Part shown: positions 37,331 through 58,817 of the stretch, one piece after another | Position numbering within the stretch: position 1 is the first letter of the stretch | How the letters are laid out: the number at the start of each line of letters is the position of its first letter | DNA from: Laspinema palackyanum D2a | GTDB lineage: Bacteria; Cyanobacteriota; Cyanobacteriia; Cyanobacteriales; Laspinemataceae | Reading direction: 5' to 3' | Length of the DNA: 64,000 nucleotides | Assembly (NCBI GenBank): GCA_025370845.1 | Contig: JAMXFF010000002.1 | Coordinates: 88,342 to 152,341 of the forward strand | Translations under genes and position numbers: made by a program | The notes under the pieces: generated by a model | Told to the model about the DNA's origin: nothing | The model's database searches: none | Seen by the model: only the letters and a program-made list of their open reading frames with translations

Positions 37331-38974
37331 GTTTCAGCACCTTTTCCTATTAATGAAGGTCGTCACAGCCTGGGGGCGAATTAGAGAATTTTTTTACTAC
37401 GCTGAAGTTTCAGCACCTTTTCCTTCTAATGAAGGTCGTCACAACGTTATTGAGTTCGGGAAAGAGGACTTTATTATGTTTCAGCACCTTTTCCTTCTAA
37501 CGAAGGTCGTCACTTGAGGACATCTGGGCAAACGTCGTTGTTCTAGGGTATGTTCCCGAGTTTCAGCACCTTTTCCTTCTAATGAAGGTCGCTACAAGTT
37601 CGGATACTAATCATCAAATCGTTCAACTTAAATTAACTGTTTCAGCACCTTTTCCTTCTAATGAAGGTCGCTACCTCGCTGATATTATCTCGACCGATGC
37701 AAACACAGTCCAGTTTCAGCACCTTTTCCTTCTAATGAAGGTCGTGACATCTACTGTTATGGTAGTGATATCCTCGTAAGCTCTAAGGTTTCAGCACCTT
37801 TTCCTTCTAATGAAGGTCGTGACAAGTAATAAATCAATGAGAAAGATTAAAGATTTATTTCAGCACCTTTTCCTTCTAATGAAGGTCGTGACTTCTATGT
37901 TTGGGGGAATTCGAGACTTTTTAATCGAATTTGTCGGTTTCAGCACCTTTTCCTTCTAATGAAGGTCGTGACTGCTGAAGCGATGGCACATCCCGAGTTT
38001 TTGGCCCTGGAGTTTCAGCACCTTTTCCTTCTAATGAAGGTCGTGACTCACTGCCACCGGAGACGTTGAGTTAGCCTTTAAGTTAGAGTTTCAGCACCTT
38101 TTCCTTCTAATGAAGGTCGTGACAATCAATTGGAAGATTTCGAGGGTTATCACGAAACCGTGCTTGAGTTTCAGCACCTTTTCCTTCTAATGAAGGTCGT
38201 GACTGATTGTTTATTTCATGCTTCCGATATTGACCGATTCTGCTAGTTTCAGCACCTTTTCCTTCTAATGAAGGTCGTGACGGCTTTGAAGTAGCAGGAA
38301 TAGATACTAATGAATATCATGCTGTTTCAGCACCTTTTCCTTCTAATGAAGGTCGTGACCTAAGAGTATTAGTAGCCGTAAGAAACTATTCTTCTTGTTA
38401 CGTTTCAGCACCTTTTCCTTCTAATGAAGGTCGTGACAATGGTGGGGACAGGATGGGAAGGTCGCCTGTAGCCGCAAGAGTTTCAGCACCTTTTCCTTCT
38501 AATGAAGGTCGTGACTGAGCTACTGCGCTTAACTCAGAAACTTGCTGAAGCCCACGGGTTTCAGCACCTTTTCCTTCTAATGAAGGTCGTGACACATTCA
38601 AATGTTCGAGGCCAAAGTAGACAAATTAACGTTTCAGCACCTTTTCCTTCTAATGAAGGTCGTGACGAGGAATGATAGTTTACAATGATTCCAAACTATA
38701 TAGTTTCAGCACCTTTTCCTTCTAATGAAGGTCGTGACTAAGTAAATGAAACTCCACTACATTAGATTAACTTCAGACAGTTTCAGCACCTTTTCCTTCT
38801 AATGAAGGTCGTGACCTTTTGAGTTACTAAAGAGTGACCTAGAATTGAGATTAAATTGTTTCAGCACCTTTTCCTTCTAATGAAGGTCGTGACACCTTTC
38901 ACCCCGATTGCTCAAGAGCTAGACAAGGGCGCAGACTTGTTTCAGCACCTTTTCCTTCTAATGAAGGTCGTGAC
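37331..38974 (-). CRISPR. CRISPR array 1: 22 repeats, 21 spacers
   Basis: 36-nt repeats, in plus orientation GTTTCAGCACCTTTTCC... ending GGTCGTGAC, with spacers of about 35-46 nt. Read on the minus strand the repeat ends in GGTGCTGAAAC, the usual type III 5' handle, with an internal CCTTC/GAAGG hairpin. The leftmost repeats vary (ends CGTCAC, CGCTAC; the eighth starts with A) while the right ones are uniform, so the old end is left and the leader right. Open frames across the array are not genes. Confidence 0.97.
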
Positions 38975-39201
38975 CCCTGCCTTTCCAACCCCTTGTCTGG
39001 TGCGGGTTCCAGGGGGGGTTTGCGAGGCTGGGGAAAATTGTTGCTACACCGAGGGGTGAGGGAGAGAGATTCGATTCGTGAAATCCTTACAGGGTAAGGC
39101 TGCGAGGCTCAGAACGAAGTTAGGTCGTTTCAGCGATTTTGGATGAGCCTCGCAGACAGGAGGCGATCGCCATTCTATGAGGGGATAGATAAAGCCCCCA
39201 A
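38975..39201 (-). promoter_or_regulatory. Leader of array 1 with three half-sites
   Basis: CTGCGAGGCTCA (39100-39111) and TGAGCCTCGCAG (39144-39155) form a perfect 12-bp inverted repeat 32 bases apart. A third half-site TGCGAGGCT lies at 39021-39029, 46 bases from the first repeat. The layout copies the leaders of arrays 2 and 3 with another half-site sequence. Confidence 0.75.
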
Positions 39202-40854
39202 TCAACTCGTAGAAAGGGGCCAAATTTGATTAAACCCTTGCTCGTTTAAAGTGTCTACCACGCCTGAATCAAAGACCGTAATCCAGCAGAAATCGTCATA
39301 CTCGCGCACGGCATAACCCGAGGGTCGCGTTTTGGAATCCCCGCACCAAGGACGTTCGGAGCGATTTGGAGCGTCACTGCTACAGACACCATGCACGAGC
39401 GATCGCCATTTTTTTCGTTCTCCTTGCCAAATACTAATGAGCTGTCCAGGGACGTTAGGTGTGGCATTGAGGGGGACATTATGAGCGATCGCTAACTTCT
39501 TTATTATTTCATTCAGTTTTTGGATTAGGTTGGCGAGGGGTTGTGAACTTGCTGGGTTCACTGTAAATTTGCTGCCACGATAAAGGTAAAACGGCCCGTT
39601 CTCATCAATTTTCTCCATTTTATGGGGATGTCGTCGCCAACCGGGTCCGAGTCCTCCCACGCGACTTGCTAAACTGAGCAAGTTTTCGATGAGTGGTTTC
39701 AGCAATTTTGCTACAGTATTTTGCTGTTCTACAGGGCAATTTTTTCCTTTAAAGTTAACTTGATGATTAACTAAAATCACCCAAGTTTCATGGGCGACTT
39801 CTGTAGGAATATTTCTGTAATTAGTTGTATGGTCTGGCGAACTGGGACGAATTTTTGAAAGAAAGCTGGTTAAGCTCAATTCGGCGATACAACCCTTCTG
39901 ATTGTTGCGTGAAGAAATTCCGCCAAACAGGATGTTGGTTAATCGTTCAGCATTGGGTTTTCCTAACAAAGGAAGGGCTAATCGGGTAAAATAGCCGCGC
40001 AGAGTAGCACGAAGCACTTGCGGTGTCCAGCGATATTTTCGGGTTTGGTCGCATTCATAGGGTTTCATCCCTGTTAGTTCAATAGTCCAAGTTCCGGTTT
40101 GGGGGACTGAAACCGCTAACCGCCCAAAACCCGAGGAGGTTCCTCTTCCAATTCCATGTTGTTCTAACATTTGTTTCAGTCGTTTTTCCAGCCAGTTTTT
40201 CTGGTCACCACTGGCGGGTTTCTTGAGGGAAATTTGAAACACAGGGTTTTCGGATTGAACACGAGCGATCGCAATAGGCTGAGTTCCTTCGGGTTTAGGA
40301 TGCTTGGGTGCGGCTTGCCACTGCGATGCCAAAGTTCGATTGGTCTGATTTCCCTGATTGTTCAAACTATCCTCTCCATAAAGTTGCCAATTTTGTTGGG
40401 GATGCAACGGATAGGGTTTTAATTGGATTAGAGGAACATTCTCAAACCGAATCTCACGGGGACGCCAGTGCCATCCTTCTCGGCGATCGATGAGACTTTC
40501 CCAAAATTCTTGTTCTTTCGGGTCAGAAATTTCGTTCCAGTTGTCCTTTAACCAATTCAATAAAACTCCTCTGACGCTAGAACCCGGAATACAGGGAACT
40601 CCTGCAATTCGCGCCGGTAAAATATGACCTTCGGGAAAACTACCCCCACCCACTTGAACCGGACTAATAATCTGTAAATCTGTTACCCGAATGGTATAGC
40701 GTTTTGAGGCAGGGGGAGCCGTTTTTTCCCAGGCATTTTCCACCGCAGGCTTTTTAAAATCATCAGTTGTTGGTGTCCAGCCCTTTTCTTTCTCTGAAAC
40801 AGTGTACCAGTCAGGTAATTTGGTCGGTAATAGGGGTTTGGGGGTAGTAGTCAT
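39202..40854 (-). CDS. Double-RAMP protein (Cmr6/Cmr1-like fusion)
   Basis: A protein of 550 residues. A Cas7-type RAMP lies at about 50-270: IISPVQVGGGSFPEGHILPARI, VPCIPGSSVRGVLLNWL and GIGRGTSSGFGRLAV (Gly-rich loop). A second RAMP-like part follows from about 290: RWTPQVLRATLRGYFTRLALPL, NILFGGISS and LASRVGGLGPGWRRHP, resembling Cmr1. It is inverted relative to the operon and separated from it by array 1. As single cmr1 and cmr6 genes are missing, it probably supplies both. Confidence 0.8.
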   Translation of the reverse strand: MTTTPKPLLPTKLPDWYTVSEKEKGWTPTTDDFKKPAVENAWEKTAPPASKRYTIRVTDLQIISPVQVGGGSFPEGHILPARIAGVPCIPGSSVRGVLLNWLKDNWNEISDPKEQEFWESLIDRREGWHWRPREIRFENVPLIQLKPYPLHPQQNWQLYGEDSLNNQGNQTNRTLASQWQAAPKHPKPEGTQPIAIARVQSENPVFQISLKKPASGDQKNWLEKRLKQMLEQHGIGRGTSSGFGRLAVSVPQTGTWTIELTGMKPYECDQTRKYRWTPQVLRATLRGYFTRLALPLLGKPNAERLTNILFGGISSRNNQKGCIAELSLTSFLSKIRPSSPDHTTNYRNIPTEVAHETWVILVNHQVNFKGKNCPVEQQNTVAKLLKPLIENLLSLASRVGGLGPGWRRHPHKMEKIDENGPFYLYRGSKFTVNPASSQPLANLIQKLNEIIKKLAIAHNVPLNATPNVPGQLISIWQGERKKWRSLVHGVCSSDAPNRSERPWCGDSKTRPSGYAVREYDDFCWITVFDSGVVDTLNEQGFNQIWPLSTS

Positions 40855-41173
40855 GTCTTCTCCTCTAAAGATTTGATTGAGAGGTCACTGGTTTGGGTGC
40901 GATCGCCTGACCTGAATCTTTATATTTAGCCAATTGAGGCAGCGTTGCTCCAATCCGCCCCCTTTCTTTGTATTCAGGCGATTCCCACTCAAATATATTT
41001 TCATGCATTCTACCTAGTTTTTGTTGCTGTAATTTTAAACTTTAATGAATTTTTGTTGCATTTTTATGACAATCCATCTCCCGATTCTGAGCGGTTGATT
41101 TGCGCCCCGAGGAAAAAAAGAAATGAAAACAACTGTAAAAGAGCAGGAATTAACATCTCAACCGCATCACTCT

Positions 41174-41242
41174 TTAAACAATAAACGTCAAGACATCTAC
41201 CTGATATTCCGGTTGTTTGCCTAAGATGACAATGCGATCGCC
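41174..41242 (-). pseudogene. Remnant of a cas2 3' end
   Basis: Minus-strand frame GDRIVILGKQPEYQVDVLTFIV plus stop, nearly identical to the C-terminus of the intact Cas2 at 42036-42314 (RERIVILGKQPEYQVDALTFIV). Only about 23 codons remain. The surrounding 40855-41281 gap holds no other gene. Confidence 0.85.
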
Positions 41243-41281
41243 TAAGTTAAAGTTGAGGAATGGGATCTAAAAATTGACCCC

Positions 41282-41629
41282 CTATTCCGTTGGGATTTGG
41301 GCCAGCAATGTTTGGAGTTTGGGAATTAGAGAGGGGAGTTCATTGGTGATGATGTTCCAGATGATATCGAGGTTGACTTCAAAGTAAGCATGAGTCAATC
41401 GCTCGCGGGTTCCGCTCATTTGTCGCCAAGGGATATCGGATGCTTGGGCTTTGGTGGAGTCTGAGACATTTTTAGCCGCTTCTCCCAAAATTTCCACTAA
41501 GCGAACAACCGCCAAGGCCAGCATTTCGTCCCGATCAAGGTCTTCTCGCGATCGCTGGTTGGTGAAAGCAATAGCTTTTTCGGCAGCATCAATTCTATGT
41601 TGTAGCCTTACAGCATCAGTCTTGACCAT
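41282..41629 (-). CDS. hepT: HEPN-domain toxin (HepT-like)
   Basis: A 115-residue DUF86-type protein, helical. The motif RERLTHAYFEVN is the R-x4-H-x-Y active site of HepT RNases. It overlaps the upstream mntA gene by 14 bases, the usual toxin-antitoxin order. In such pairs the MNT partner inactivates HepT by adding AMP to the Tyr. Placed between the cas2 remnant and cas2. Confidence 0.9.
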   Translation of the reverse strand: MVKTDAVRLQHRIDAAEKAIAFTNQRSREDLDRDEMLALAVVRLVEILGEAAKNVSDSTKAQASDIPWRQMSGTRERLTHAYFEVNLDIIWNIITNELPSLIPKLQTLLAQIPTE

Positions 41630-41930
41630 AAATCACCTCAGATTCAGACAGGATGCGATCGCGAAAATAGCGGCTGAGGTCTTCCGGGGTATTCAAATCC
41701 ACAGTCCGTCCGAGTAAGTTGCTCAAACGGTCTTGGATATCGATGAAACCAAAACCGGGGGTTTTTCCAGGTTGAAATTCCACCAGAATATCGATATCGC
41801 TGTCAGGGCGAAAGTCATCCCGTAGAACCGACCCAAAAAGGGCAAGTTTACGGATATGGTAATCTTGGCAAATCTGAGCGATCGCCTGTTGTGGAATTTC
41901 CAGTTTAGATTCTCGGGGAGTGATAGTCAT
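41616..41930 (-). CDS. mntA: MNT nucleotidyltransferase antitoxin
   Basis: A 104-residue minimal nucleotidyltransferase. ALFGSVLRDDFRPDSDIDILVEF has the G-S-x10-D-x-D motif. It modifies and silences the HEPN toxin encoded just after it. Complete small family member with a conserved start. Confidence 0.92.
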   Translation of the reverse strand: MTITPRESKLEIPQQAIAQICQDYHIRKLALFGSVLRDDFRPDSDIDILVEFQPGKTPGFGFIDIQDRLSNLLGRTVDLNTPEDLSRYFRDRILSESEVIYGQD

Positions 41931-42035
41931 CTTGTCATTTCAGCAAGTTTGAACACTTCTATTTTTGGTAATCTGTTCTATTTTACTCCTCAAGTTCTCT
42001 TGATTGACCGGAAAACCAATCATTCGCCTCTCTCT

Positions 42036-42314
42036 TCAAACAATAAACGTCAAGGCATCTACCTGATACTCCGGTTGTTTACCTAAAATGACAATGCGCT
42101 CCCGATTATGTGGAGACAAAGGATAAAAACGCAGTTGGTCTTGTCGTTTATTGAGGAGTTTGAGTAAGCGGGTTTGTAGTTGATGATATTCAGTTTCGTT
42201 CAAAACCACCTCAAATACCGACTTTTGCACCCGCATTCCGTAGGTTTCCAAGACTTTGGCGACTCGGTTGCGGCGGTTGTCTTCTGTAATGTCGTAACAA
42301 ATCAAATAAAACAT
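42036..42314 (-). CDS. cas2: Cas2
   Basis: A 92-residue protein with the ferredoxin-like Cas2 fold: MFYLICYDITEDNRRNRVAKVLE with the conserved Asp, RVQKSVFEVVL, and RERIVILG near the end. Cas2 bridges Cas1 dimers during spacer integration. It is the only complete cas2 in the window although there are two cas1-type genes. It lies 115 bases after the degenerate cas1 in the same direction. Confidence 0.96.
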   Translation of the reverse strand: MFYLICYDITEDNRRNRVAKVLETYGMRVQKSVFEVVLNETEYHQLQTRLLKLLNKRQDQLRFYPLSPHNRERIVILGKQPEYQVDALTFIV

Positions 42315-42429
42315 CGCTGACCTTAGAGGTTGATGTTAGATTTCGGTAAAATTGTAGGGTGGTCCCCTCTATAAAATTAGAGGTTAGGGGACGCGATATG
42401 AACATCCCTGACCACCCTAGGAATCAGAT

Positions 42430-43488
42430 TTAGCTCATGGGGATAGACTCAAGTTTCCAAGGCTGCGGGTTATCATACTCAGAGACCTGATTCCCTCGCC
42501 AAGACGGTTGAGGCACACTCATCCCCCGAGGAGTCCACTTCAGCAACGCCGGACGGTATGGGGTATCACTGCACAAACAGCGCCGGTAATGTCGGATTTG
42601 ATGCCACAGACATTGACGATAGGTTTTTTTGTTCGTCGCAACTGTGGCTAATTGTTGCTCCCAGGCCGTTATCAAATCAGTCAAGGGATGACCATGACCG
42701 TGACCGTTGCCATTGCCGTGACCATTGCCGTTGCCGTTGCCCAAAAAATTGGAATGAGACAGAGCAAACCGCATTGCTACCCGGTCCACTAACACCACCG
42801 ACCACTCCAGCATCAAATCCCGCACCAGAGGCAGATTTTCTCCATCGCTCAAGTGCAATCCGCCCAGTTCGGGGTCGAGTCCCATTTCCAGGACAAACCC
42901 TAACCCCACCTGTTCTAACAGCGCCTGACTCAGGTGGAAAAACTGATTCACGGTGGCTGGTTCTACGGCTGCATTCAGCCACAGCCACTCGCGCAAAGCT
43001 GGGTAGTACACTTGATTGATGGTGGCGAAATACCGGCGCAGTTGTTCGATATTGGCATTGGGAATCTCATCCAGGAACAGGGCGATCGCTTCCAGGGCGA
43101 TTTCGACCGTGGGACAACAGCTAGAAGCTAAAGACAGCAACAAGGCTTGACGGTTGTGCAGAGTTGCACTCACGATGCGTTCTGCGGTGGATTGGCAGAA
43201 CTCCGCATCTGATGCTCGTTGCAGTTGTTGAGGTAGATATTGAGCCGGGGATTCCAGATGAAGGCGTCCCAAATACCGATAATCAGCATCCAGAAACAAC
43301 ACCGGCAACTGATAAGAAAATGCCAATGCCGTCGCTTCACCGGAGAGTTCGCATCCGTGGCAAACCACAATGTGACTCGTCAGTTTGGCCTGAATCCGAT
43401 ACTCCAATCGCTCCTGATACCACTGTTCAAAGACTTGCCGTTTAGCTTTCAGAATCGTAGGCGATCGCATCAAATAAATAGCAGTCAT
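42430..43488 (-). CDS. cas1: Cas1 homologue lacking the catalytic Glu
   Basis: A protein of 352 residues. The Cas1 N-terminus is clear (SHIVVCHGCELSGEATALAF, LPVLFLDADYRYLGRLH). In the integrase part the block RGYEGKAASAYFQAL of RT-Cas1 corresponds to LRRYFATINQVYYPAL here, so the metal-binding Glu is Phe (near residue 152). The His (GGLHLSDGE) and Asp (LVRDLMLEW) are kept. A Gly/Asn/His-rich insert (NGNGHGNGNGHGHGHP) interrupts the C-terminal domain. It may have a structural rather than catalytic role with Cas2, or be decaying. Confidence 0.85.
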   Translation of the reverse strand: MTAIYLMRSPTILKAKRQVFEQWYQERLEYRIQAKLTSHIVVCHGCELSGEATALAFSYQLPVLFLDADYRYLGRLHLESPAQYLPQQLQRASDAEFCQSTAERIVSATLHNRQALLLSLASSCCPTVEIALEAIALFLDEIPNANIEQLRRYFATINQVYYPALREWLWLNAAVEPATVNQFFHLSQALLEQVGLGFVLEMGLDPELGGLHLSDGENLPLVRDLMLEWSVVLVDRVAMRFALSHSNFLGNGNGNGHGNGNGHGHGHPLTDLITAWEQQLATVATNKKTYRQCLWHQIRHYRRCLCSDTPYRPALLKWTPRGMSVPQPSWRGNQVSEYDNPQPWKLESIPMS

Positions 43489-43688
43489 AGGTTTATTTGA
43501 GTTAGAGGTTATAGCGCATTACTCCGCTATGTTTCTATACTGCCAATGAGCTATTGGAGTTCAGATATGAGTTCAGGCTAGTTTTATATGTTTTTTTATA
43601 TGACTTAGCTAGTTTGATTAAATTATTCAGCATTTTTTAAAAGAACGCACTAAAAAAGCAGCCGAAATACAATCGACTGCTTTTATGC
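43489..43688. other. Gap between cas1 homologue and distal end of array 2
   Basis: 200 AT-rich bases without a frame. It would hold the cas1-cas2 promoter (minus strand) and the end of array 2. Confidence 0.4.
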
Positions 43689-45605
43689 GTTTCAGCACCT
43701 TTTCCCTTTAGTAAGGGTCGAACTTCCAGAACGTGTAAAAACCTTGATACGCTTATTAGAAGGTTTCAGCACCTTTTCCCTTTAGTAAGGGTCGAACTTA
43801 GTCAATAAAGAAACAGGGGATTTTTTTAAATTAGTAGTTTCAGCACCTTTTCCCTTTAGTAAGGGTCGAACAGTGATTGTTGATACACTCAACAATGTTC
43901 AGTTGGTTTCAGCACCTTTTCCCTTTAGTAAGGGTCGAACAGAAGAAGCTAAACAGCGTGCTGAAGAAATTCAAACTGTTTCAGCACCTTTTCCCTTTAG
44001 TAAGGGTCGAACCGCCCAGGACTCTACTGGTAGCTTAATCTACCAAGAAAGTTAGTTTCAGCACCTTTTCCCTTTAGTAAGGGTCGAACAGTCTGTGAAG
44101 ACTGGGAAGAAGACGAGGAAGAAGGTTTGGTTTCAGCACCTTTTCCCTTTAGTAAGGGTCGAACCAGTTGGAACGGATCCATATTATTGCCACGGCTGAT
44201 GTTTCAGCACCTTTTCCCTTTAGTAAGGGTCGAACTTTCGTAGAAATTCCAGACGATCGATATCAACCTGGTTTCAGCACCTTTTCCCTTTAGTAAGGGT
44301 CGAACTCAGTTCTGTTCTTCTTCTGGGTTTTTTACCCGGGGTTTCAGCACCTTTTCCCTTTAGTAAGGGTCGAACGAAGCACTGGATGTCATTCTTCAGT
44401 ATGCAAAGGAGTTTCAGCACCTTTTCCCTTTAGTAAGGGTCGAACCACGGAGATCCGTGGTGTGCACCAAAAGAGTAAGCAGTTTCAGCACCTTTTCCCT
44501 TTAGTAAGGGTCGAACCGGACATCCACAGAATGTTATAGGTCTCCGTGTTATTGTTTCAGCACCTTTTCCCTTTAGTAAGGGTCGAACCGAACTATCGAA
44601 GAAGCTTACGAGACATATTGCGGGTTTCAGCACCTTTTCCCTTTAGTAAGGGTCGAACTATCCCTTACCAGCCAGATGGTCAAATTGAGAGTGTATTGTT
44701 TCAGCACCTTTTCCCTTTAGTAAGGGTCGAACCGGTGAACAATCGTGGTATTCCCAGTGTAAACTGGTTTCAGCACCTTTTCCCTTTAGTAAGGGTCGAA
44801 CCCCTGATTGTAGGGACTGAGTACGAAAGCACTCTGCCTGGGTTTCAGCACCTTTTCCCTTTAGTAAGGGTCGAACTTAACGCTGGACCAAGCTCTAATG
44901 TAATTAATTGGGCAGGTTCAAGTTTCAGCACCTTTTCCCTTTAGTAAGGGTCGAACACGGAAATGATGTGCTGATTGGAGATGCCGGAAACAGTTTCAGC
45001 ACCTTTTCCCTTTAGTAAGGGTCGAACGAAATGAACTCAATGGGATCTCAAACAAATTTCGTCGAGTTTCAGCACCTTTTCCCTTTAGTAAGGGTCGAAC
45101 TCTAATATCAATTACACGATCACAAAGGGTTTCGTGAGTTTCAGCACCTTTTCCCTTTAGTAAGGGTCGAACCAGTGGCAAATCATAAATGTCTCCGAAC
45201 ACGAAGAAGGGTTTCAGCACCTTTTCCCTTTAGTAAGGGTCGAACGCAAGGTGTTCCATTGGAATGCAATGTAACAGTATACGGTTTCAGCACCTTTTCC
45301 CTTTAGTAAGGGTCGAACTCCGATCCTAGTATGCCTACTGGTCAGATTGATTTGTTTCAGCACCTTTTCCCTTTAGTAAGGGTCGAACCCTGAATTCCGT
45401 GCTACTGTTGTCGGTTGGGGGGACAATTTCAGCACCTTTTCCCTTTAGTAAGGGTCGAACCTTTGTTGCCAGTTCCTCCTGCCCCAGCACCAGAATTTCA
45501 GCACCTTTTCCCTTTAGTAAGGGTCGAACGAAAAAACCACCCCAACGTTCTAACTTTGAGTTAGAAGCAAATTTCAGCACCTTTTCCCTTTAGTAAGGGT
45601 CGAAC
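43689..45605 (-). CRISPR. CRISPR array 2: 27 repeats, 26 spacers
   Basis: 35-nt repeats, plus-strand start GTTTCAGCACCTTTTCCC and end AAGGGTCGAAC; minus-strand reading ends in GCTGAAAC with a CCCTT/AAGGG hairpin. Spacers are about 34-42 nt. The leader is on the right. The three leader-proximal repeats (45426, 45495, 45571) begin ATTT, that is their handle ends GCTGAAAT. Confidence 0.97.
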
Positions 45606-45832
45606 CCTTGAGTTTTGAAGCTCAAGCGTTGAGCCAATTCTACACCCCTACATCTGAGGGGGTCAAGGTTTTGTAGCAACATCCGCTTCATTTTCGCCTC
45701 AAATCACGCAAAATCGTCGTCTCAAACCCACTGGTGAAGAGCAATCTGAGGGGGGTAACAGCAGAATAAGGCTTTCAGACTTACCCTACCCCCCTCAGAT
45801 GCTTATCAGTCAGACTCTAGTGATAAGTTGAG
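45606..45832 (-). promoter_or_regulatory. Leader of array 2
   Basis: Inverted copy of the array 3 leader. TCTGAGGGGGGTA (45745-45757) and TACCCCCCTCAGA (45787-45799) are 29 bases apart; a third half-site TCTGAGGGGG (45653-45662) is 47 bases from the first repeat. CCTTGAG abuts the repeat. Confidence 0.85.
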
Positions 45833-45899
45833 TTAATCATTGAGAATCCAGTGGGGTGATGGAGGTGTAGTGCGTGGGAAGCGACTATCCCCACAACGT

Positions 45900-46175
45900 T
45901 TAACACTCGCCATCAAGTTGAGTAGTCTGTAGATATTGTAACATTCGTTTGCCCTTAGTTGAGGTAATTTGGTAATGAGATTTGCCCCGTTTAGTGCGAG
46001 AGGAAGTGCAGATAAATCCTTCATCAAGTAATCCAGCTAGATGATGATTGATTCGAGACAAATGTCCTCCTCTAGCGCAACTGTTGGAGCAGAGTTGGGA
46101 GGATGTAATTCCCGGTTGTTGAGCAATTTGAAGAAACAGCAATTTTCGGGTCCCGGTCAGCAGTTTGTTCTGCAC
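45900..46175 (-). CDS. Small winged-helix DNA-binding protein
   Basis: A 91-residue protein from a GTG at 46175, 63 bases after RT-cas1 in the same direction. It reads as a winged helix: KLLFLQIAQQPGITSSQLC, ARGGHLSRINHHLAGLLDEGFI, TSSRTKRGKSHYQITSTKGK, like MarR/ArsR-type regulators. It lies beside the array 2 leader, so the leader half-sites are plausible targets; this is inference. Confidence 0.7.
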   Translation of the reverse strand: MQNKLLTGTRKLLFLQIAQQPGITSSQLCSNSCARGGHLSRINHHLAGLLDEGFICTSSRTKRGKSHYQITSTKGKRMLQYLQTTQLDGEC

Positions 46176-46238
46176 TAGGAAACAATGGATGGATTACTGC
46201 TGTGGCTAGACTGAATTTGTCGAAGTGACGAAAGAACG

Positions 46239-48239
46239 CTACAACTTCCACAACATGGGACGATACACCTCAACCTCCCCGACTAAACAAGCGATATATT
46301 CTCGCACTTGCAACTCAATACACCGCTTTAAACTAACTTTGTAGTTCGTATGGGGATGGGTGATTTCAGAGAGCAACTTATCCTCCCAGTGCTTAAGATA
46401 TTTCTTCAAGGCATGAGGTTGCAAGTAGACTCCATTGCGCTCATCGGGCAAGGTAAAATCATCTGGGGTTAAAATCTGGGAATTGACTAGATAAGCCACC
46501 AAAGAATCCACAACTTGGGCGCGAAATTCCTCCATCAAATCGGACACCAATGCGGGATGATTGTCCCGAGGAACGTGCAGATTGCCAAAGTGCGGATGCA
46601 GTCCCGCTAAGTTGACAAAGGAATGGACATTTTGACTGAGCAAGGTATAGCCAAGGCTCATCATGCTATTCACCGGGTCCGTTGGGGGCCGTTTGGTCCG
46701 TTTCTCGAAGGCAAAAGGTCCAGAGAATAAGGAACCCAAGGCTTGAAAATAGGCGGATGCGGCTTTGCCTTCGTAGCCGCGCAAGGCATCCATTGATTCG
46801 GCTAAGGACAATTTATCCCGGCAACTGATGAGCATTTCCAAGGCAATCAAGGCGGCATCGGTTTGACGACGGCGGTTTAGTTTGAGCAACAAAGCCCGAG
46901 AATTGTGTAGTTTTGCCAGAACGATCGCCTCGGCTTGGCGACGGGTAAATTCTGGGTCGAGCGACCGTTGCACTTGCTGAATCAAATACTCAACTTTGGC
47001 ATGACTTTCCGAGTACAACCGGCCAAAATACCGCCCTTTCTGGGACAAATACATCACCGGAATCCGACGACGCAAGGCCAAAGAAACCGCTCCGTGGGAC
47101 ATATTGCAGCAGCCAAACAACACAATATGACTCACCCGGTTGGCGGGAACTTTCACGCGCAATTCGTGATTAGAAAACACTTGAAATTGCTGATTTTTGA
47201 CACTCAAATAAGCGCCTTGGTCGGTGATGTATAAAGTGGTCATCGCATCACTCCATAAATGTTCAGGATTGGCAATGGGAAAGTGAACGGGTTTGAGACT
47301 GCAAGCCAGCGGAGGACGAGAAACCCGCGCTCGTTGCCGTTGTCGTACCCGCCGATAAGGAACTCCCGAGGCAGAGAGGACCCAATCCCCGCGAGGTTCG
47401 GGCGGTGGCGGTGCATAGACTTGACCTTTGACAAACCGATAGCCCAAAAAGGTCAACTCTTCATCAGGAGCATAAATCTGAGTTTTGTCGGGCTGCAAGG
47501 TGAGATACAATTCTCCTAACCAGCCTTGCACTTGCTCTAAGTGATGCTGGGCTTGCATGGCATTGGCAGAGGCAATCACAAAATCATCCCCATAGCGCAC
47601 GAGATTGAATCCGGCAGCCAAACAACGGCGGTCGAATTCGGTCAGGTAGAGGTTAGCTAAAGCGCCGGAAAGTATAGCTCCTTGTAAGACGCCTTTGCCA
47701 AAGTTTTGATATTGTCCCCGAATCACAATCCCGGCAGCGATTTGTTGTTCCAGCAACTGTCCGATAATCGGGTCGAGTTGCAACTGCTCCAATTGAGTGA
47801 GCAACAGCGCCCAACAGAGATTGTCGAAGAATTGGGCAATATCCGCTTTCAGGACCCAACAAGGTTGAAATTGGTAATAGGCATAAAGATGATGCACCGC
47901 TTGCTGGATGCTGCGCCCCGGTCGATAGGCATAGCTACAATCGAGAAAAGCATCCTCAAGGGGCCAGTACAGTTCCTCCAGCAATAACCGTTGAATAATG
48001 CGATCGCCCACGGTAGGAATTCCCACCAACCGTTTCCCCCCGGATGCCTTGGGCAAGTAAAAGCCCAATGCGGGTTTAGCCTGATAGGTTTCCTGGGTGA
48101 GATGATGCTGGAGTTGCTCTAACTGCATCTGGAGATTGTCGGCAAACCAATCTACCGTGATGCCATCCACCCCTGCCATTCGCGAACCCCGGCGTACCTG
48201 TTGCCAAGCGGCCCTGAGTAAAGTCTCGGTAAATTCCAT
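46239..48239 (-). CDS. cas1: Reverse transcriptase-Cas1 fusion
   Basis: A protein of 666 residues. The N-terminal RT is of the group II intron-like type: YRPGRSIQQAV, VLKADIAQFFDN, GVLQGAILSGALANLYL and the catalytic LVRYGDDFVIA near 216, then LQPDKTQI and FLGYRF. Cas1 starts near 332 (MTTLYITDQGAYLSV) with VSHIVLFGCCNMS and IPVMYLSQKGRYFGRL. The catalytic Glu (RGYEGKAAS, about 490), His (GNLHVPRD, about 553) and Asp (LVSDLMEEF, about 565) are all present. Such fusions can take spacers from RNA. There is no N-terminal Cas6 domain and no adjacent cas2. Divergent from the STAND gene. Confidence 0.97.
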   Translation of the reverse strand: MEFTETLLRAAWQQVRRGSRMAGVDGITVDWFADNLQMQLEQLQHHLTQETYQAKPALGFYLPKASGGKRLVGIPTVGDRIIQRLLLEELYWPLEDAFLDCSYAYRPGRSIQQAVHHLYAYYQFQPCWVLKADIAQFFDNLCWALLLTQLEQLQLDPIIGQLLEQQIAAGIVIRGQYQNFGKGVLQGAILSGALANLYLTEFDRRCLAAGFNLVRYGDDFVIASANAMQAQHHLEQVQGWLGELYLTLQPDKTQIYAPDEELTFLGYRFVKGQVYAPPPPEPRGDWVLSASGVPYRRVRQRQRARVSRPPLACSLKPVHFPIANPEHLWSDAMTTLYITDQGAYLSVKNQQFQVFSNHELRVKVPANRVSHIVLFGCCNMSHGAVSLALRRRIPVMYLSQKGRYFGRLYSESHAKVEYLIQQVQRSLDPEFTRRQAEAIVLAKLHNSRALLLKLNRRRQTDAALIALEMLISCRDKLSLAESMDALRGYEGKAASAYFQALGSLFSGPFAFEKRTKRPPTDPVNSMMSLGYTLLSQNVHSFVNLAGLHPHFGNLHVPRDNHPALVSDLMEEFRAQVVDSLVAYLVNSQILTPDDFTLPDERNGVYLQPHALKKYLKHWEDKLLSEITHPHTNYKVSLKRCIELQVREYIACLVGEVEVYRPMLWKL

Positions 48240-48394
48240 AAACTCATTGAAAATGGCTTACCGTTCCATCGTGGCAAGGCGGTATTTGCGTTGGCGTATG
48301 AGTATGGCGGAAAACTGTATGATTTTTTATATGACTTTTGTTAAAATTCAGCCATGACTTAATCGGCAGACTCAGATTTTCATTGGGGGTGCTC

Positions 48395-51300
48395 ATGCCA
48401 AAACGCAGTTTGCAAGCATCAATCGCCGGATTACAACTGGTGCGATCGGCACTGGAGCGCAAAAATTTAACCCAATCCATGTTGGCGGACCCCACAGAAT
48501 ATGATTTGGCGTCTTGGTCTACGATTAACAACTTCTTTACTGGCAAAAGGGTCGATCGCAAAATCTTTATCAAAATCTGTGAAGCGTTAGACCTGGAATG
48601 GGAGGATGTGGTCAATACGGGTCCTCCTCCAGAACCCATTAACGATTTAAAGGCGGCAGTATTGCGGCAGGCACAGTTACGGCGAGAAGCGTTGAATCCT
48701 CGCATCTTAGAACGCATTGACCGCGAGATAGTTGACTCAAAATTCACTGGAGCAATCCAACGGGGACTCGAAGGAATTCAACGCATTATCCCGATTGTCG
48801 CACCTGCCGGTTATGGAAAAAGCACGATTGTTGGCAGTCTCTATGACAAATTGCTCGTCCATCCAAACTGTTGGATTGGCTTGATTTTATGCAATTCTCT
48901 GACCCTGCTAGATTCTCCGACTGCGGAACACTTAGCAGTCGCCTTGGGAGAAAGCGTTGCAGGGATGCAGCGTTCGATTGTGGAAATTGCCACCCAGTTG
49001 AATGCTACCGAGCGCGGATTGTTGCTCATCGACACCTTAGATTTAATCCTGGACCGCACCTTGGTTCCGCCCTTGAGTCGGATTTTTGCTGCACTCCTGG
49101 AAGCGGGTACAACCCTGGTCTTTACCTGTCGCGATCGCGAATATCATGATTTCCTAGAACCCACATCAGAAAAACTGCCTGGATTGGCCGCTGCTGTGGA
49201 CCGCTATCACCTGCCAGAGTTTACCCGAACCGAAGTGTATCAAGCTGCCACGGCTTTTGTCCAGAAGCAACCGGCAGTAGAAAATCACAATTTTGCGGAT
49301 AAAATTTTAGCTTTGTCTGCGGACAATCGGTCTTTAGGAGAAATCGTCTGTAATCCTTTGCTTTTGGCCTTGTTATGTGATTTATTTGCTAAAGATGGCC
49401 GGGTCCCTCAAGATTTAACGGTCAGCAAACTCTACAAAAAATATTGGCAGGAGAAAGTCGCCTATAGTCGGGTCGATCGCAGTCATTCCGCTTTACTGGC
49501 GATTGAGAAAGAAAAGTTTTGTTTGAACATTGCCAAAGCCTTATTTGACCTCTCCGGTGAACGGTTGTGCGAATCGGCTTATTTGGATGAGTTGGGGATA
49601 GACTTTAGCGAAACCACTGCCTCCGCTTATCGGGATTTGCTCAGTGAGGGAGTCTTGGAACGACTGCCTTCTCAAAAAATTCACTTTTTTCACCAAACTT
49701 TACTTGAATATGCGATCGCCTACTGGTTACTGCGACAATCCAGTTTACCCCAACGGCAACAGTTAATTGCCACCCTCAGTCAACCCGAAACTGGGCGCTC
49801 GTTGTGGAGTTGGTGGTCTGTGATGCGACAGTTGTTAACCATTGCAGAGGATGGGGAATTTGAAACGGTCGCGCAACAACTCAACACCGACAGATTGGAA
49901 GCGTTTCGCGCCGTTATCTTTGCGGCGGCTTCCCGGGACACCCCAGCCATGTTGCGTCAACAACTGCCACTCGCCTTGACCAAAACTGGAATCTATCAAA
50001 AAATTCTGCGTCAAGCCTTGGAATCGGCATCCACCGCTTTAGCCGAAACAGCTTGGGATGCCACCGTTGAGCAGTTAAAGTCGAGCGATCGCACCACCGC
50101 CTCAACCCTAGCGCAACATCTCGGGTCATTACTCACCCCTTGGCAAACTCAACTTGGCAGTCGCCTCCGGCAAGTTTTGAAGGCAGTCGGGCAACGCAAC
50201 GCAGAATCAGCAGAGAGAGAACAAGCATTTTTGTGGGGTGCAGTAGTCGAATCTTGTACACCATTGCTCCGAGAATCCGCCAATGACGCGGCGTTCTCGA
50301 TACTTTGTGAGTATTATCCCAGCTTTGCCGAAGGAACACAAACCACGGTAATCCGCTTACATCTGGATAGAGGATTGCCCGATGCAGCCTATTTAAAATT
50401 GTGGGAAACCTGTATCCAATTTCCCTTACCCAAACGTCCGAGTAATTCATTGAAACAGCAACTCATCCAACTTGCTGCCCGAGTCTTCCCTCAGTTACTC
50501 ACTAATGAAAATCATCCTTGGTTTGACTCAGTTTTGGCAGTAATTCACCATCCCATTCAAACCGGATGGGACCGGGTTTGTGCCGCTGCGGTTGGACGAT
50601 ATGCCTGCCAGTCTCCTGAAATTCTGGATGAACTCTTGACCGATTTATTGACGGGAGACCCTCGGCATACTAGCAGCAATTTAATTGCCTTAGACGAAGC
50701 CAGTTTATCCGGTGTCGCTGCTGATATTGCTAAGAAACTGGTGCAATTTCAGGGGACTCAGTTGGAGCGGCTTTCTGCTTTGGCGGCTGTCATCAAATCA
50801 ATTGACGATCGCCTAACCGAAACCCAGAAAGAACAAGTGATTGACTGGTGTAATCAACCCGCATCCCAAGAACCGGAACGCTGGTTACCCATCCTGATTC
50901 CCCTTGCCAAAAATGCGCCAACGGTGCAAGAAAAATTGGTCAATCTACTCGAACAAATTTCTGAACCTTCAGTCGCAGACGCGCAACTGCAACAACTGCT
51001 ACGAGTGGCTCCCTCACTCAAAAGTCGATGGGAATTAAACTCAGAAATCGTCAAGGATGAGTTAGCCACGGTGGAAATCAATCGCCTGGAAGCAGTTACC
51101 TCCAATCTGGCCTTATCTCGATTAATTGTACTGGCACAGTCCCCGGAACGAAAACCAGCCCTTGAATCATCCAAAGCCCTGCTAAGTCTAGCCTCTCAGC
51201 GAGATTTTCCCCAACTGTTAGACAGTTTAGCCTTAGTCAAATCCCCCTATCCCGGTGTTCGATTCAATGCTTTAGAAATGATTCAAACTCAAATTCAGGA

Positions 51301-51856
51301 ACGTCAACATCTTCTGTCCGAGAAAGAGTTAGCTGAAATCTGCACGACCTTTGAAGTGGAAACTCAGCCTAAAGTCATTCAAAAGTTGTGTGAAATCGTG
51401 ACAGCATGGATTGATGATTCTCGGACTATCCCGCCTTGTATTTCTGACTCAGTTGATAAATTAGTCAAGCGAGCTACTATTAATCCCAACTTAGAGGGGG
51501 GAGTTGCTGGAGCATTACTCGATACCCTCAATGTTATCGCCCAGTTAGAAGATAACACCCAAACTGACCGACTTAGCCAATGGACCAAACTATTGCTGCA
51601 TTCTATTGATTTTAAACGAGTCCAGGAATCGAAAGCGATTGATTTAGTCGCGGCGATCGCCCGAGTTGAAGGGCAATTTTTTCCTCAACTCCTCACAAGT
51701 GAATTCTACCGCCTGCCTTGGCGAAACCAGCGCACCATCATTCTGTCCATCCGGCGAGTAGAGGGTGTCGATTCACCTTGGTTGAATCACATCCTGCAAC
51801 AGAGTGGCGATCGAGACGAAATTGCCAGTTTGATTTTAGAGATGAGAGGGGCCTAA
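48395..51856 (+). CDS. STAND-type NTPase with N-terminal HTH and repeat tail
   Basis: About 1153 residues from the ATG at 48395. The N-terminus (about 1-75) is a helix-turn-helix known from cyanobacterial NACHT proteins: KRSLQASIAGLQLVRSALERK, then STINNFFTGKRVDRKIFIKIC. The P-loop is IVAPAGYGKSTIVG (about 135), Walker B LLLIDTLDLI (about 209) and sensor LVFTCRDREY. A winged region ends in HFFHQTLLEYAIAYWL. The remaining 700 residues look like helical HEAT/ARM repeats. STAND proteins oligomerise on sensing a ligand, often a phage protein. It lies divergent from RT-cas1 and before array 3; a functional link is unproven. Confidence 0.88.
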   Translation: MPKRSLQASIAGLQLVRSALERKNLTQSMLADPTEYDLASWSTINNFFTGKRVDRKIFIKICEALDLEWEDVVNTGPPPEPINDLKAAVLRQAQLRREALNPRILERIDREIVDSKFTGAIQRGLEGIQRIIPIVAPAGYGKSTIVGSLYDKLLVHPNCWIGLILCNSLTLLDSPTAEHLAVALGESVAGMQRSIVEIATQLNATERGLLLIDTLDLILDRTLVPPLSRIFAALLEAGTTLVFTCRDREYHDFLEPTSEKLPGLAAAVDRYHLPEFTRTEVYQAATAFVQKQPAVENHNFADKILALSADNRSLGEIVCNPLLLALLCDLFAKDGRVPQDLTVSKLYKKYWQEKVAYSRVDRSHSALLAIEKEKFCLNIAKALFDLSGERLCESAYLDELGIDFSETTASAYRDLLSEGVLERLPSQKIHFFHQTLLEYAIAYWLLRQSSLPQRQQLIATLSQPETGRSLWSWWSVMRQLLTIAEDGEFETVAQQLNTDRLEAFRAVIFAAASRDTPAMLRQQLPLALTKTGIYQKILRQALESASTALAETAWDATVEQLKSSDRTTASTLAQHLGSLLTPWQTQLGSRLRQVLKAVGQRNAESAEREQAFLWGAVVESCTPLLRESANDAAFSILCEYYPSFAEGTQTTVIRLHLDRGLPDAAYLKLWETCIQFPLPKRPSNSLKQQLIQLAARVFPQLLTNENHPWFDSVLAVIHHPIQTGWDRVCAAAVGRYACQSPEILDELLTDLLTGDPRHTSSNLIALDEASLSGVAADIAKKLVQFQGTQLERLSALAAVIKSIDDRLTETQKEQVIDWCNQPASQEPERWLPILIPLAKNAPTVQEKLVNLLEQISEPSVADAQLQQLLRVAPSLKSRWELNSEIVKDELATVEINRLEAVTSNLALSRLIVLAQSPERKPALESSKALLSLASQRDFPQLLDSLALVKSPYPGVRFNALEMIQTQIQERQHLLSEKELAEICTTFEVETQPKVIQKLCEIVTAWIDDSRTIPPCISDSVDKLVKRATINPNLEGGVAGALLDTLNVIAQLEDNTQTDRLSQWTKLLLHSIDFKRVQESKAIDLVAAIARVEGQFFPQLLTSEFYRLPWRNQRTIILSIRRVEGVDSPWLNHILQQSGDRDEIASLILEMRGA

Positions 51857-51944
51857 GCAAAACCCGCCTTGAACAAGGTAAAATTAAGGAGTAAGCTGAA
51901 GTGAAGCCCTCCTAAGACTCATTACTAAAAGTTATAACTTTCTA

Positions 51945-52152
51945 TCCAATGATAAGCATCTGAGGGGGGTAGGCTAGTCCTGGAACCCGCATTCTCTCGT
52001 TACCCCCCTCAGATTAGGCTCAGGAAAAGGCTTTGAAACAATGATTTTCCCCAATTTCAGACCCAAATCATGAAACTGTTGCTACGAAAACTTGACCCCC
52101 TCAGATCCATCGGTGTACAATTGGCTCTATGCCCCGGTCTCAGGACTCAAGG
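51945..52152 (+). promoter_or_regulatory. Leader of array 3
   Basis: TCTGAGGGGGGTA (51959-51971) and TACCCCCCTCAGA (52001-52013) are 29 bases apart; third half-site CCCCCTCAGA (52096-52105), 47 bases before the first repeat. GTTGCTAC, AATTGGCTC and the abutting CTCAAGG are shared with the array 2 leader. Confidence 0.85.
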
Positions 52153-54469
52153 GTTTGACCCTTATTGAAGGGAAAAGGTGCTGAAACCTAAAGCCTGACT
52201 TTCCGCCGTATAACCACGGCAAGTTTGACCCTTATTGAAGGGAAAAGGTGCTGAAACGATTGTTTGCAGGGGTTCGGGCTTCACACTCTTGTGTTTGACC
52301 CTTATTGAAGGGAAAAGGTGCTGAAACGGGTGAAGCTACCAATCGTAATGGCAGCAACACTAGAAGTTTGACCCTTATTGAAGGGAAAAGGTGCTGAAAC
52401 TCTGCAGAGCGGATAATTGCTAACTTAGCTTCAAGAGTGTTTGACCCTTATTGAAGGGAAAAGGTGCTGAAACTGGCTTAAAACAAAAGCATTGGTACTA
52501 TCAAAGTAGGTTTGACCCTTATTGAAGGGAAAAGGTGCTGAAACAATTTTTTTAACTAACCTCGGCTCAGCTGAAAATTGTTTGACCCTTATTGAAGGGA
52601 AAAGGTGCTGAAACTGATCCCATCGATCATTACTTGACCGCTAACGACATGGAGTTTGACCCTTATTGAAGGGAAAAGGTGCTGAAACAATGTTCCTAGT
52701 ATCAGACCAAAAGACCAAACTAGGTTTGACCCTTATTGAAGGGAAAAGGTGCTGAAACTACATTCCATTGCCCAGAGTCAACTTCCACTCCCAGACGTTT
52801 GACCCTTATTGAAGGGAAAAGGTGCTGAAACTAAATTTTTATTGTCTGCTAGATAGGCATCTAGCGTTTGACCCTTATTGAAGGGAAAAGGTGCTGAAAC
52901 TTCGCTCCCCGTTCGACCAAAACTCCCAAACGGGTTTGACCCTTATTGAAGGGAAAAGGTGCTGAAACGTTTGGTTGGGGTTATAACCCCACTCTTGTGA
53001 ACCGTGTTTGACCCTTATTGAAGGGAAAAGGTGCTGAAACGAATTGGGATCTTCTTCCCACCATCCATCATGAAAGTTTGACCCTTATTGAAGGGAAAAG
53101 GTGCTGAAACTAGACTGAATTACCAAGTCGAAGGTAGTATACAGTGTTTGACCCTTATTGAAGGGAAAAGGTGCTGAAACAGAAAGAAGCATAGCAATAG
53201 CTCCTTCAATGGTTTCACTTGTTTGACCCTTATTGAAGGGAAAAGGTGCTGAAACTATGCAGTCCATCTGAAGAGGTTACCACAGGCACAGTTTGACCCT
53301 TATTGAAGGGAAAAGGTGCTGAAACCAGAAATACCAGCCCGAACGGTATCGCTACCTGTTTGACCCTTATTGAAGGGAAAAGGTGCTGAAACGCATAGTG
53401 GTTCGGGTTGATATTCAACCCACTGAAATTCGGTTTGACCCTTATTGAAGGGAAAAGGTGCTGAAACGAGCGGCCTCAACCATGGGGTATTGGTCATTAC
53501 AGACGTTTGACCCTTATTGAAGGGAAAAGGTGCTGAAACTTGAAAGCAATCTGGACTTCTTGAGGAAGTTTATCGAAGTTTGACCCTTATTGAAGGGAAA
53601 AGGTGCTGAAACATGGAATTGAATGACGGATCAAGGGAATAACCGAGGTCGTTTGACCCTTATTGAAGGGAAAAGGTGCTGAAACCACACTATTATTCAG
53701 TCCATTTAGTGTCAGATTTGTTAAGTTTGACCCTTATTGAAGGGAAAAGGTGCTGAAACCAGCAGGTGTGTTGATTGGAGCGATACCAGTTCCCGTTTGA
53801 CCCTTATTGAAGGGAAAAGGTGCTGAAACCATCTACACCTACCAGTCGTACATTACCTTCTAGTTTGACCCTTATTGAAGGGAAAAGGTGCTGAAACAGT
53901 CGTGGGGACATCATTGCCCCAGTTGAAATTGATGTTTGACCCTTATTGAAGGGAAAAGGTGCTGAAACATTATGGTTAAAACTTGTTTGCGAAGCTTTGA
54001 CAAGTTTGACCCTTATTGAAGGGAAAAGGTGCTGAAACTTATATCATCCCCGGCTCGACCAGTGTCAACTTGGTAGTTTGACCCTTATTGAAGGGAAAAG
54101 GTGCTGAAACTGTGCACCGCTAGAGTTGACAGAACCTGCCGCAACTGTTTGACCCTTATTGAAGGGAAAAGGTGCTGAAACGCTGAGGACCGACAATGTT
54201 GGTTTGAGCGATTGCAGGTTTGACCCTTATTGAAGGGAAAAGGTGCTGAAACGTGAGCCAGTTAAGAAGTCGTTTCCTTGGTTACCGTGTTTGACCCTTA
54301 TTGAAGGGAAAAGGTGCTGAAACAAGATTGGGTCACAATGTGACCTGGGCCAGAGTCTGAAATGGTTTGACCCTTATTGAAGGGAAAAGGTGCTGAAACT
54401 CGACCGTAAAGGTCGCGAGGGGTTCCGAATACCAGTTTGACCCTTATTGAAGGGAAAAGGTGCTGAAAC
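52153..54469 (+). CRISPR. CRISPR array 3: 33 repeats, 32 spacers
   Basis: 35-nt repeats starting GTTTGACCCTTATTGAAGGG and ending GGTGCTGAAAC, essentially identical throughout. They have the CCCTT/AAGGG hairpin and a type III handle. Spacers are about 34-41 nt. Transcribed rightward from the leader at 51945-52152. Confidence 0.98.
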
Positions 54470-54483
54470 AGTAAAGGCAATTC

Positions 54484-54515
54484 AGGCGATCGGTCAATAA
54501 CTGCACCGATCGCCT
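54484..54515. terminator. 11-bp inverted repeat after array 3
   Basis: AGGCGATCGGT (54484-54494) and ACCGATCGCCT (54505-54515) form a perfect stem just beyond the last repeat. It may end array transcription. Confidence 0.5.
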
Positions 54516-54718
54516 ATTCAAGCCACATTAAGCGTTTTACATTCAGCAGAAACTTATCCGGTGACCGAAGCAAATTAGATGAGCCGGTAATCTTCTAGCG
54601 GGCGAAATAGGAAATGATACGGGAAGAGGCGAGATTCAAGCAACCCCAAGTTTTGCATTCCTCACTCCCAATTGGTTTCTAGCGATGAGGGATGAGACCT
54701 TAAAAGCCAACGTTTCTA

Positions 54719-55012
54719 CTATTTTGTAAGTTTTTGTTGAATCCAACCGGCAAATTCCAGCCATTCTGTACCACTAAATTTGGTTTGCCATACTGGATTA
54801 TTGCCCGGATTTAGCCTTAAACAATGTAAAAGTAAATCATCGGATAAAAACACTTCTTCTACCGACTGTCCAAATTGCCATTCTTTTTAGTATTTTTCTG
54901 CTGATAAAGCACCTTTACTTGCCATTAAATGAAGATGAAGCAATGTAAGAAAACTTATTTCTTGACCAATTATTTGAATTAATAGTTGAGAAATTTTTGG
55001 CAACTCTTGCAT
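54719..55012 (-). pseudogene. EWLxF-family gene with an in-frame stop
   Basis: Minus-strand frame from ATG 55012: MQELPKISQLLIQIIGQ...GALSAEKY, then TAA (54887-54889), then in the same frame KEWQFGQSVEEVFLSDDLLL...SGTEWLEFAGWIQQKLTK to 54719. Without the stop it is 97 codons. The end matches the proteins at 16480-16754 and 16751-17311. A hairpin (TAGTGGAG/CTCCACTA, 55028-55055) lies upstream. Confidence 0.7.
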
Positions 55013-55063
55013 GACAATGATTGGGGGTAGTGGAGAGTTAATTTACCCTCCACTATTATAGCG

Positions 55064-55996: not shown

Positions 55997-56009
55997 GATA
56001 ACCTCCTTG

Positions 56010-56032
56010 TAGGGTTGGATAAACCAACCCTA
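56010..56032 (-). promoter_or_regulatory. Hairpin ahead of an AAGGAGG site
   Basis: TAGGGTTGG/CCAACCCTA stem lies between ardA and the 55064-55996 gene, directly before its Shine-Dalgarno. It could be an ardA terminator or modulate translation. Confidence 0.5.
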
Positions 56033-56038
56033 AAATAA

Positions 56039-56816: not shown

Positions 56817-56841
56817 CAAGTTTTAATAATATTGCCAAGTT

Positions 56842-57036: not shown

Positions 57037-57094
57037 AATTTTTTAGGGGTAAAGGTAGGGGTCATTGATTGATGACCCCAAGGATTGCAATTAA

Positions 57095-58801: not shown

Positions 58802-58817
58802 AGGGAGCATTTTAAAA

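Follow-up and report, generated by a model that had tools for sequence, protein, structure and literature searches.

Matched half-sites at set spacing in cyanobacterial CRISPR leaders: a candidate docking element for spacer integration

How an integrase finds the leader of a CRISPR (clustered regularly interspaced short palindromic repeats) array without integration host factor (IHF) is an open question, for which a review of type I-D systems names Synechocystis, stated there to lack an IHF homologue, as an example (PMC10212523). The question arises in concrete form in a 64,000-nucleotide stretch of Laspinema palackyanum D2a (contig JAMXFF010000002.1, positions 88,342 to 152,341; hereafter the window), part of a 7.4 Mb genome. 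The window holds three CRISPR arrays together with a fusion of reverse transcriptase and Cas1 (RT-Cas1), a second Cas1, Cas2 and Cmr-like genes. Array A1 (37331–38974, minus strand) has 36-nt repeats, and arrays A2 (43689–45605, minus strand) and A3 (52153–54469, plus strand) have 35-nt repeats. Each leader carries an inverted pair of 12–13 bp half-sites, here called the dyad, and a third copy of the half-site 45–47 bases before the first repeat.

The orientation of the half-sites is identical in the three leaders. In A3 (all plus strand), the 5′ half-site TCTGAGGGGGGTA (51959–51971) and the 3′ half-site TACCCCCCTCAGA (52001–52013) flank an inner segment of 29 bases (51972–52000) with the core CCTGGAACCCGCATTCTCTCGT, and the third half-site GACCCCCTCAGA (52094–52105) lies 47 bases from the first repeat. 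The A2 leader has the same arrangement on the minus strand, with TCTGAGGGGGGTA at 45787–45799, 29 bases between the arms at 45758–45786, the 3′ half-site at 45745–45757 (in order of position the pair reads TCTGAGGGGGGTA, then TACCCCCCTCAGA) and GACCCCCTCAGA at 45653–45664, again 47 bases from the first repeat. The distance from dyad to third half-site in A2 and A3 comes to 80–82 bases, set by the length at which the half-sites are drawn. The A1 leader, also on the minus strand, carries another word: CTGCGAGGCTCA (5′, 39144–39155) and TGAGCCTCGCAG (3′, 39100–39111) are separated by 32 bases (39112–39143, core CGCTGAAACGACC..TTCGTT), and the third half-site AGCCTCGCAA (39020–39029) is 45–46 bases from the first repeat and 70 from the dyad. 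An earlier reading of this DNA from its letters alone (the sequence-only reading) had proposed this three-site layout, and our measurements of the spans and repeat distances confirm it.

The exact 13-mer of A2 and A3 occurs eight times in the genome, as four inverted pairs that all lie at leaders. Four of these occurrences belong to the window; the other four belong to a second CRISPR cluster with RT-Cas1, on another contig (G000:C48; L036 and L037, where G-numbers denote genomes and L-numbers loci or leaders of this survey). The RT-Cas1 of this cluster is 96% identical and its repeats differ from those of the window; two of its leaders carry the A2/A3 word and a third carries approximately the A1 word. 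Allowing one mismatch in the 13-mer adds 15 further places, and because the control word read backward gives 16 in all, only exact matches are meaningful. The word TCTGAGGGGG is found exactly at six places in the window, all inside leaders. A model of the dyad, spanning 70 positions and excluding the third site, hits six places in the host genome with an expect value (E) below 1e-8, all of them CRISPR leaders; of the remaining matches, four repeat these dyads on the opposite strand and one is weak (E 0.53). Taken alone, the letters of the A1 third site (9/12) are not significant, with 24 words of up to three mismatches observed against 31.5 expected, and this site is supported by its position and by relatives. 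No terminator-like site was found in the scanned stretches of the A2 and A3 leaders, and an intrinsic terminator was set aside.

The element extends well beyond the host. The dyad model was built from 20 aligned dyads of the window and 12 neighbouring stretches; the alignment omits the second-array dyad of L047, the array of L036 was missed at that stage, and L044 is shifted by one column in A1. Of 388 genomes sampled from the host's order, 125 match the model (E ≤0.001), approximately one third, and in a phylum-wide sample the dyad appears in 34 of 292 genomes, four of which lie outside the order. With 100 stretches fetched around matches, the survey comprises 182 matches in 112 sources, or 159 without overlaps, and 123 of these dyads start 181–211 bases upstream of the first repeat of a script-found array, on the GAAAC-oriented strand. 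Array-like repeats lie downstream of 20 of the remaining 36. When RT-Cas1 loci were picked by protein search, 14 of 15 had the dyad. In 113 loci (a set that includes L042, a locus outside the dyad-model search), the gene families met most often are Cas1-type proteins (about 60 loci) and Cas2 (42). The RT-Cas1 query finds a match at 62 loci, in at least two cases through the reverse transcriptase alone; many dyad loci show no Cas1 within the fetched stretch. Position and neighbouring genes fit leaders of type III (RT-)Cas1 systems. A DNA search with the A3 leader against a plasmid collection returned two Nostoc records, both matching the dyad part only.

Within a leader, the three sites change together. 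In the 20-dyad alignment, the arms are more variable than parts of the inner segment, whose core is approximately GCTGAAACCC..ATTCT.TCGTT, and two-sided changes are seen in 11 of 14 arm pairs. Arm cells pair in 87.9% of cases, compared with 70.2% when shuffled and at most 51.1% when slid. Most genomes were reached via the dyad model, which favours paired arms, so the agreement between arms is partly selected, whereas that with the third site is not. We compared the third region with the arms in 102 distinct leaders out of 158 that were long enough, where distinct means less than 80% ungapped identity and leaves the leaders still related. Agreement between third region and 5′ arm averages 8.93/10 positions within a leader and 7.37 across leaders (z 17.2), and the corresponding values for the 3′ arm are 8.71 and 7.26 (z 15.5; 10,000 permutations each). 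A match of at least 9/10 between 5′ arm and third site is reached by 74 of the 102 leaders and by 21% of cross pairs. The same holds in 11 new leaders found through the RT-Cas1 protein search (own match 10.5/12, cross match 8.3, 0 of 10,000 permutations), of which five use almost the same word and two or three others a second one. That geometry is kept while the word changes, as the sequence-only reading had claimed for three leaders, is thus borne out across the 102 leaders, the 11 protein-found leaders and the groups of leaders within single genomes described below.

The spacing of the sites is confined to a few values. Geometry was assessed in the 71 of 102 distinct leaders that have a called array and a repeat of at least 34 bases, using thresholds of at least 11/14 for the third match and at least 10 for the arms. 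In the 42 of these 71 leaders that pass the thresholds, the third site ends 44–46 bases before the repeat, a set distance to the leader–repeat junction like that of anchoring-site and IHF-type elements. The 3′ arm and the third site are 77–78 bases apart (75 once) in a long class, 65–67 in a short class and 87 in one extra-long leader, and the classes step by approximately one helical turn. In 80 leaders placed in a common register, the third site starts at 123–126, 134–138 or 146, and L161, where it starts at 148, appears to be another extra-long case. Repeat length goes with spacing class: 35 nt in 48 of 51 long-class leaders and 36 nt in 16 of 17 short-class leaders.

Do these sites serve transcription or integration? 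Looping repressors typically act through operators spaced by whole helical turns, and the spacing classes fit a looping regulator that occupies three operator sites and switches the array promoter. The third sites of A2 and A3 also overlap promoter-like sites, TTGACC-18-TAGAAT at 45637–45666 (minus strand) and TTGACC-18-TACAAT at 52092–52121 (plus strand), both consensus matches only, whose −35 boxes run into the third half-site. Columns 1 and 2 of the long-class third site do not track the arms, as if held by the −35 box. By consensus, however, this box lies ~61 bases before the repeat in 51 long-class leaders and ~35 bases before it in 16 short-class leaders, which brings the promoter-like consensus ~25 bases nearer to the repeat there; consensus letters judged by eye underlie these positions, together with one published start site, that of Synechocystis CRISPR3, 1 nt before the first repeat (PMC3575380). 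Because the third site keeps its 44–46 bases while the promoter-like consensus shifts, its placement indicates that it is tied to the repeat and not to the promoter. Nor is any regulator family found with most dyads, and the small protein encoded in the window, discussed below, is found in 9 of 113 loci. We regard transcriptional control as rather unlikely, and the distance of the third site to the repeat favours a role in integration.

The words themselves are numerous. The 80 registered leaders contain 45 distinct 10-base cores, with C-rich cores common among long-class leaders; among the 45 of these 80 leaders whose three 12-mers agree pairwise at 10/12 or better, 31 distinct words are found. 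Registration dropped 22 of the 102 leaders, those with arms or third site below 8/12, which inflates own-match rates in this set, and no such filter was applied in the 102-leader, within-genome and 11-leader comparisons. A conserved motif sequence, as in anchoring-site and IHF-type elements, is therefore not seen with 45 cores in 80 leaders, and the two binding specificities that the sequence-only reading had suggested are too narrow a description: dozens of words occur, and several can be present around one cas module. Since the long class shares its C-rich core, conservation of the inner segment exceeds that of the arms only modestly, with 1.16 bits per column against 0.98 and 1.01 in the long class (51 leaders) and 1.12 against 0.88 and 0.64 in the short class (16 leaders).

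Leaders of one genome and one class that differ in word are the closest comparison. In 15 such groups comprising 37 leaders, the own match is 10.54/12 and the cross match 8.97, and none of 5,000 within-genome permutations reached the own-match score. Four groups (G075, G294, G383 and the short class of G000) show no clear gain of own over cross match, and their words are mostly near-identical. At L050, L056, L066 and L110, a single cas module is flanked by leaders with different words, so either self-matching suffices or several readers are at work. Given the self-matching within genomes and the different words at one module, the word seems to belong to the leader and not only to the cell. A scheme of one protein for one word, which we rejected, is weakened by the within-genome self-matching, despite the four groups without clear gain. 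A family of paralogous DNA-binding proteins, one per word and encoded away from the arrays, would explain different words within one genome; none is array-linked among the gene families of the 113 loci, a survey that covers the loci only, and we hold this explanation to be very unlikely.

Matching could also arise without selection if template switching at inverted repeats copies one arm onto the other sites. Such concerted mutation would account for the free within-leader matches and for mixed states with one odd copy, but it leaves unexplained the set distances between dyad and third site, the kept core positions and the layout shared across the order. In the 80 registered leaders, matching spans ~13 columns and stops sharply (the long-class third site matches from column 3), which also speaks against a copying process, and we judge it very unlikely. 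Two features noted by the way concern the leaders themselves: L082 has pairs of arrays with back-to-back leaders carrying two different half-site words, and many leaders, L082 and L073 among them, contain a second repeated word, approximately CTGGGTAAGGGTTT, once after the 3′ arm and again immediately ahead of the first repeat, as seen by eye.

Words that are free to vary as long as they match one another also resemble a stem, and the compensating changes between arms at first make an RNA hairpin attractive. If arms and third site paired as RNA or as a DNA cruciform, any complementary word would work, which would accommodate different words at one locus, and four dyads folded as single RNA strands reach z values of −2.0 to −5.2. 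The mismatches argue otherwise. Overall, we count 59 G-T and 57 A-C mismatches, with 37 and 25 between the arms (91 leaders) and 22 and 32 between the 5′ arm and the third site (70 leaders). There is thus no wobble bias, hence no tolerance of G-U pairs that RNA pairing of either strand would bring, and although two-sided changes are present, the pattern expected of a structured RNA is not seen. The hairpin was rejected for this reason, while a cruciform would leave the third copy unexplained, and steps of a helical turn suit bound duplex DNA; base pairing is on the whole quite unlikely. The missing wobble bias and the helical-turn spacing favour protein-bound duplex DNA. Together with the set distance to the repeat, they favour such a site, used by the spacer-integration complex, over either a hairpin of RNA or an operator at the promoter.

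From the sites, their co-variation, the spacing classes, the repeat distance and the mismatch pattern, we infer an integration function, looping and the probable identity of the reader. The three half-sites would form one cis-acting leader element. An oligomeric protein complex would bind it in double-stranded form and make the leader–repeat junction ready for spacer integration. One subunit would sit on the third half-site, at a fixed distance from the first repeat, and others on the upstream inverted pair, with the intervening DNA looped so that the upstream pair could shift only by whole helical turns. The complex would most likely be the Cas1-Cas2 adaptation complex, alone or with an additional DNA-binding partner, comprising RT-Cas1 and the second Cas1 in the class with 35-nt repeats and a single Cas1 in the class with 36-nt repeats. 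It would fill the role played elsewhere by IHF and the anchoring site. We give about even chances to the proposal that the element is a docking and looping site of the spacer-integration complex.

Several results weigh against this proposal. Matching is not universal: 28 of 102 leaders fall below 9/10 between 5′ arm and third site, and under the thresholds above the geometry is not measurable in 29 of 71 leaders, in 24 of them owing to a weak third site. The third site is weak or missing in L069, L072, L079, L085, L096, L102, L104, L113 and L138, the leaders of G016 retain the arms and not the third site, and those of one genus (g13; L047, L093, L130, L140, L141 and L146) combine a weak third site with a 3′ arm of approximately GTGCCAC. 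Sixteen of the 36 dyads outside the main set still show no array, two of them less than 1 kb from the end of the stretch. The gene families of the 113 loci include no DNA-binding protein family that accompanies most dyads, and a reader of one specificity fails where a single adaptation module stands amid different words (the four loci named above). As a separate observation made by eye, the 5′ arm and the third site of the g13 leaders are still alike.

A bolder version holds that the leader is recognised by the mutual identity of its three sites, the complex sensing the match between dyad and third site as a password of the array's own; we consider this unlikely. If true, leaders that differ in word could share one adaptation module, an arrangement hinted at by L050, L056, L066 and L110, and the word might show which leader goes with which complex or keep integration away from stray sites. 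Should matching itself be what counts, it would constitute a recognition principle undescribed for CRISPR leaders in the literature examined. Among the papers listed in literature searches, none gives an account of three co-varying leader sites in its title or the start of its abstract; the leader-motif papers of Buyukyoruk et al. 2025 and Santiago-Frangos et al. 2021, and Kieper et al. 2019, lie outside that comparison.

Known systems offer partial parallels. Type I-E and I-F leaders contain an anchoring site for the integrase (PMC10212523), and IHF acts in type I-F leaders (PMC12259127). As in the proposed docking element, leader DNA at a set distance from the repeat is involved, and an upstream motif reaches the integrase through folding of the leader; in contrast, I-E and I-F systems use bending by IHF and one kind of motif, whereas here a free word is usually matched three times. 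A cyanobacterial type I-D leader of 202–220 bp has motifs I–III that raise spacer uptake (Kieper et al. 2019, via PMC10212523); motif III has been likened to an anchoring site, and the bending factor is given as unknown (PMC10212523). Our element shares with it the cyanobacterial setting, the number of motifs and an anchoring-like third motif. The I-D motifs are described as conserved, however, and the Synechocystis I-D CRISPR1 leader has no dyad match, a comparison made by description and not letter by letter. In Sulfolobus type I-A, a distal leader motif bound by Csa3a, a winged helix-turn-helix protein, and a proximal Cas1 site are both required for full uptake (PMC9456107), a two-part arrangement of distal motif and proximal site similar to ours. 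It differs in that a word matched three times is not described in the portion of that account used here, which places a Cas1 stem-loop at the repeat junction (PMC9456107), and in that the small protein of our window is not general among loci with the sites. Finally, the RT-Cas1 loci of Arthrospira have a separate Cas1 without reverse transcriptase domain and belong to type III-B (PMC5513706), features that the window shares; leader sites are not described for them in the section consulted (PMC5513706). Against this background, the element offers a measurable grammar of matched words, helical-turn spacing and a set repeat distance, whose variable words searches for conserved motifs could miss.

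This grammar can be tested in Synechocystis PCC 6803, where the CRISPR3 leader carries the element. The plasmid pSYSA (without positions 50,001–59,999) has one dyad match (31.3 bits, E 3.1e-6), which lies in the leader of CRISPR3, and none up to E 5 in the leaders of CRISPR1 (type I-D) and CRISPR2. The CRISPR3 element spans record positions of about 89923–90060. The three CRISPR3 10-mers, TGCGAGGCTG, GAGCCTCGAT and GAGCCTCGCA, are close to the A1 words; relative to its own 5′ arm, the 3′ arm matches at only 7/10 and the third site at 9/10. The leader belongs to the short class, and 46 bases separate the end of its third site from the repeat. That A1 in the Laspinema host is served by a close relative of the CRISPR3 Cas1 was considered and rejected, as the six genome matches are all at most 33% identical.

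Which proteins of the window could read these sites? The RT-Cas1 (46239–48239, minus strand), 98% identical to that of Laspinema olomoucense D3b, retains its catalytic residues and is a candidate component of the complex acting on these leaders; across 33 sequences, RT-Cas1 keeps the catalytic Glu, His and Asp in every case. The second Cas1 (42430–43488, minus strand) has lost the catalytic Glu, as have 24 of 29 second Cas1 proteins of RT-Cas1 loci, while His is kept in 28 of 29 and Asp in all 29. These Cas1 labels follow score rules, under which the 'single' entries L095 and L114 are not Cas1-like, and four of the five second-Cas1 entries that keep Glu resemble other types. The pattern suggests that the Cas1 accompanying RT-Cas1 is possibly inactive and structural in role; in the long class, such a subunit could bind the leader, but the element is also present in short-class loci with a single Cas1. 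Cas2 is encoded at 42036–42314 (minus strand).

The sequence-only reading had nominated the small protein at 45900–46175 (minus strand), which it described as a winged helix, as one candidate for a protein that binds the dyads. Pfam and NCBIfam give no match for this protein up to E 0.01, and it is present in the 9 of 113 loci mentioned above, in 7 of 59 relatives and in 6 of the 25 dyad-bearing genomes among G000–G058. Absent from most genomes with the sites, it is not supported as a general reader of the half-sites or as an operator-binding regulator. A large STAND-like NTPase at 48338–51856 was likewise rejected as the reader, being found in only 34 of 113 loci (the window and 33 others), often beside RT-Cas1; it gives weak Pfam matches only, and its N-terminal part looks helix-turn-helix-like by eye.

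Two small genes beside the arrays (41282–41930), named by eye as HEPN/MNT toxin-antitoxin-like, recur among the 113 loci, with matches to the two queries in 5 and 8 of them, counting the window itself. An 82-base stretch is duplicated at 88% identity (41158–41239 and 42020–42101), and since the copy at 42020–42101 overlaps the 3′ end of cas2, the copy at 41158–41239 resembles a cas2 relic.

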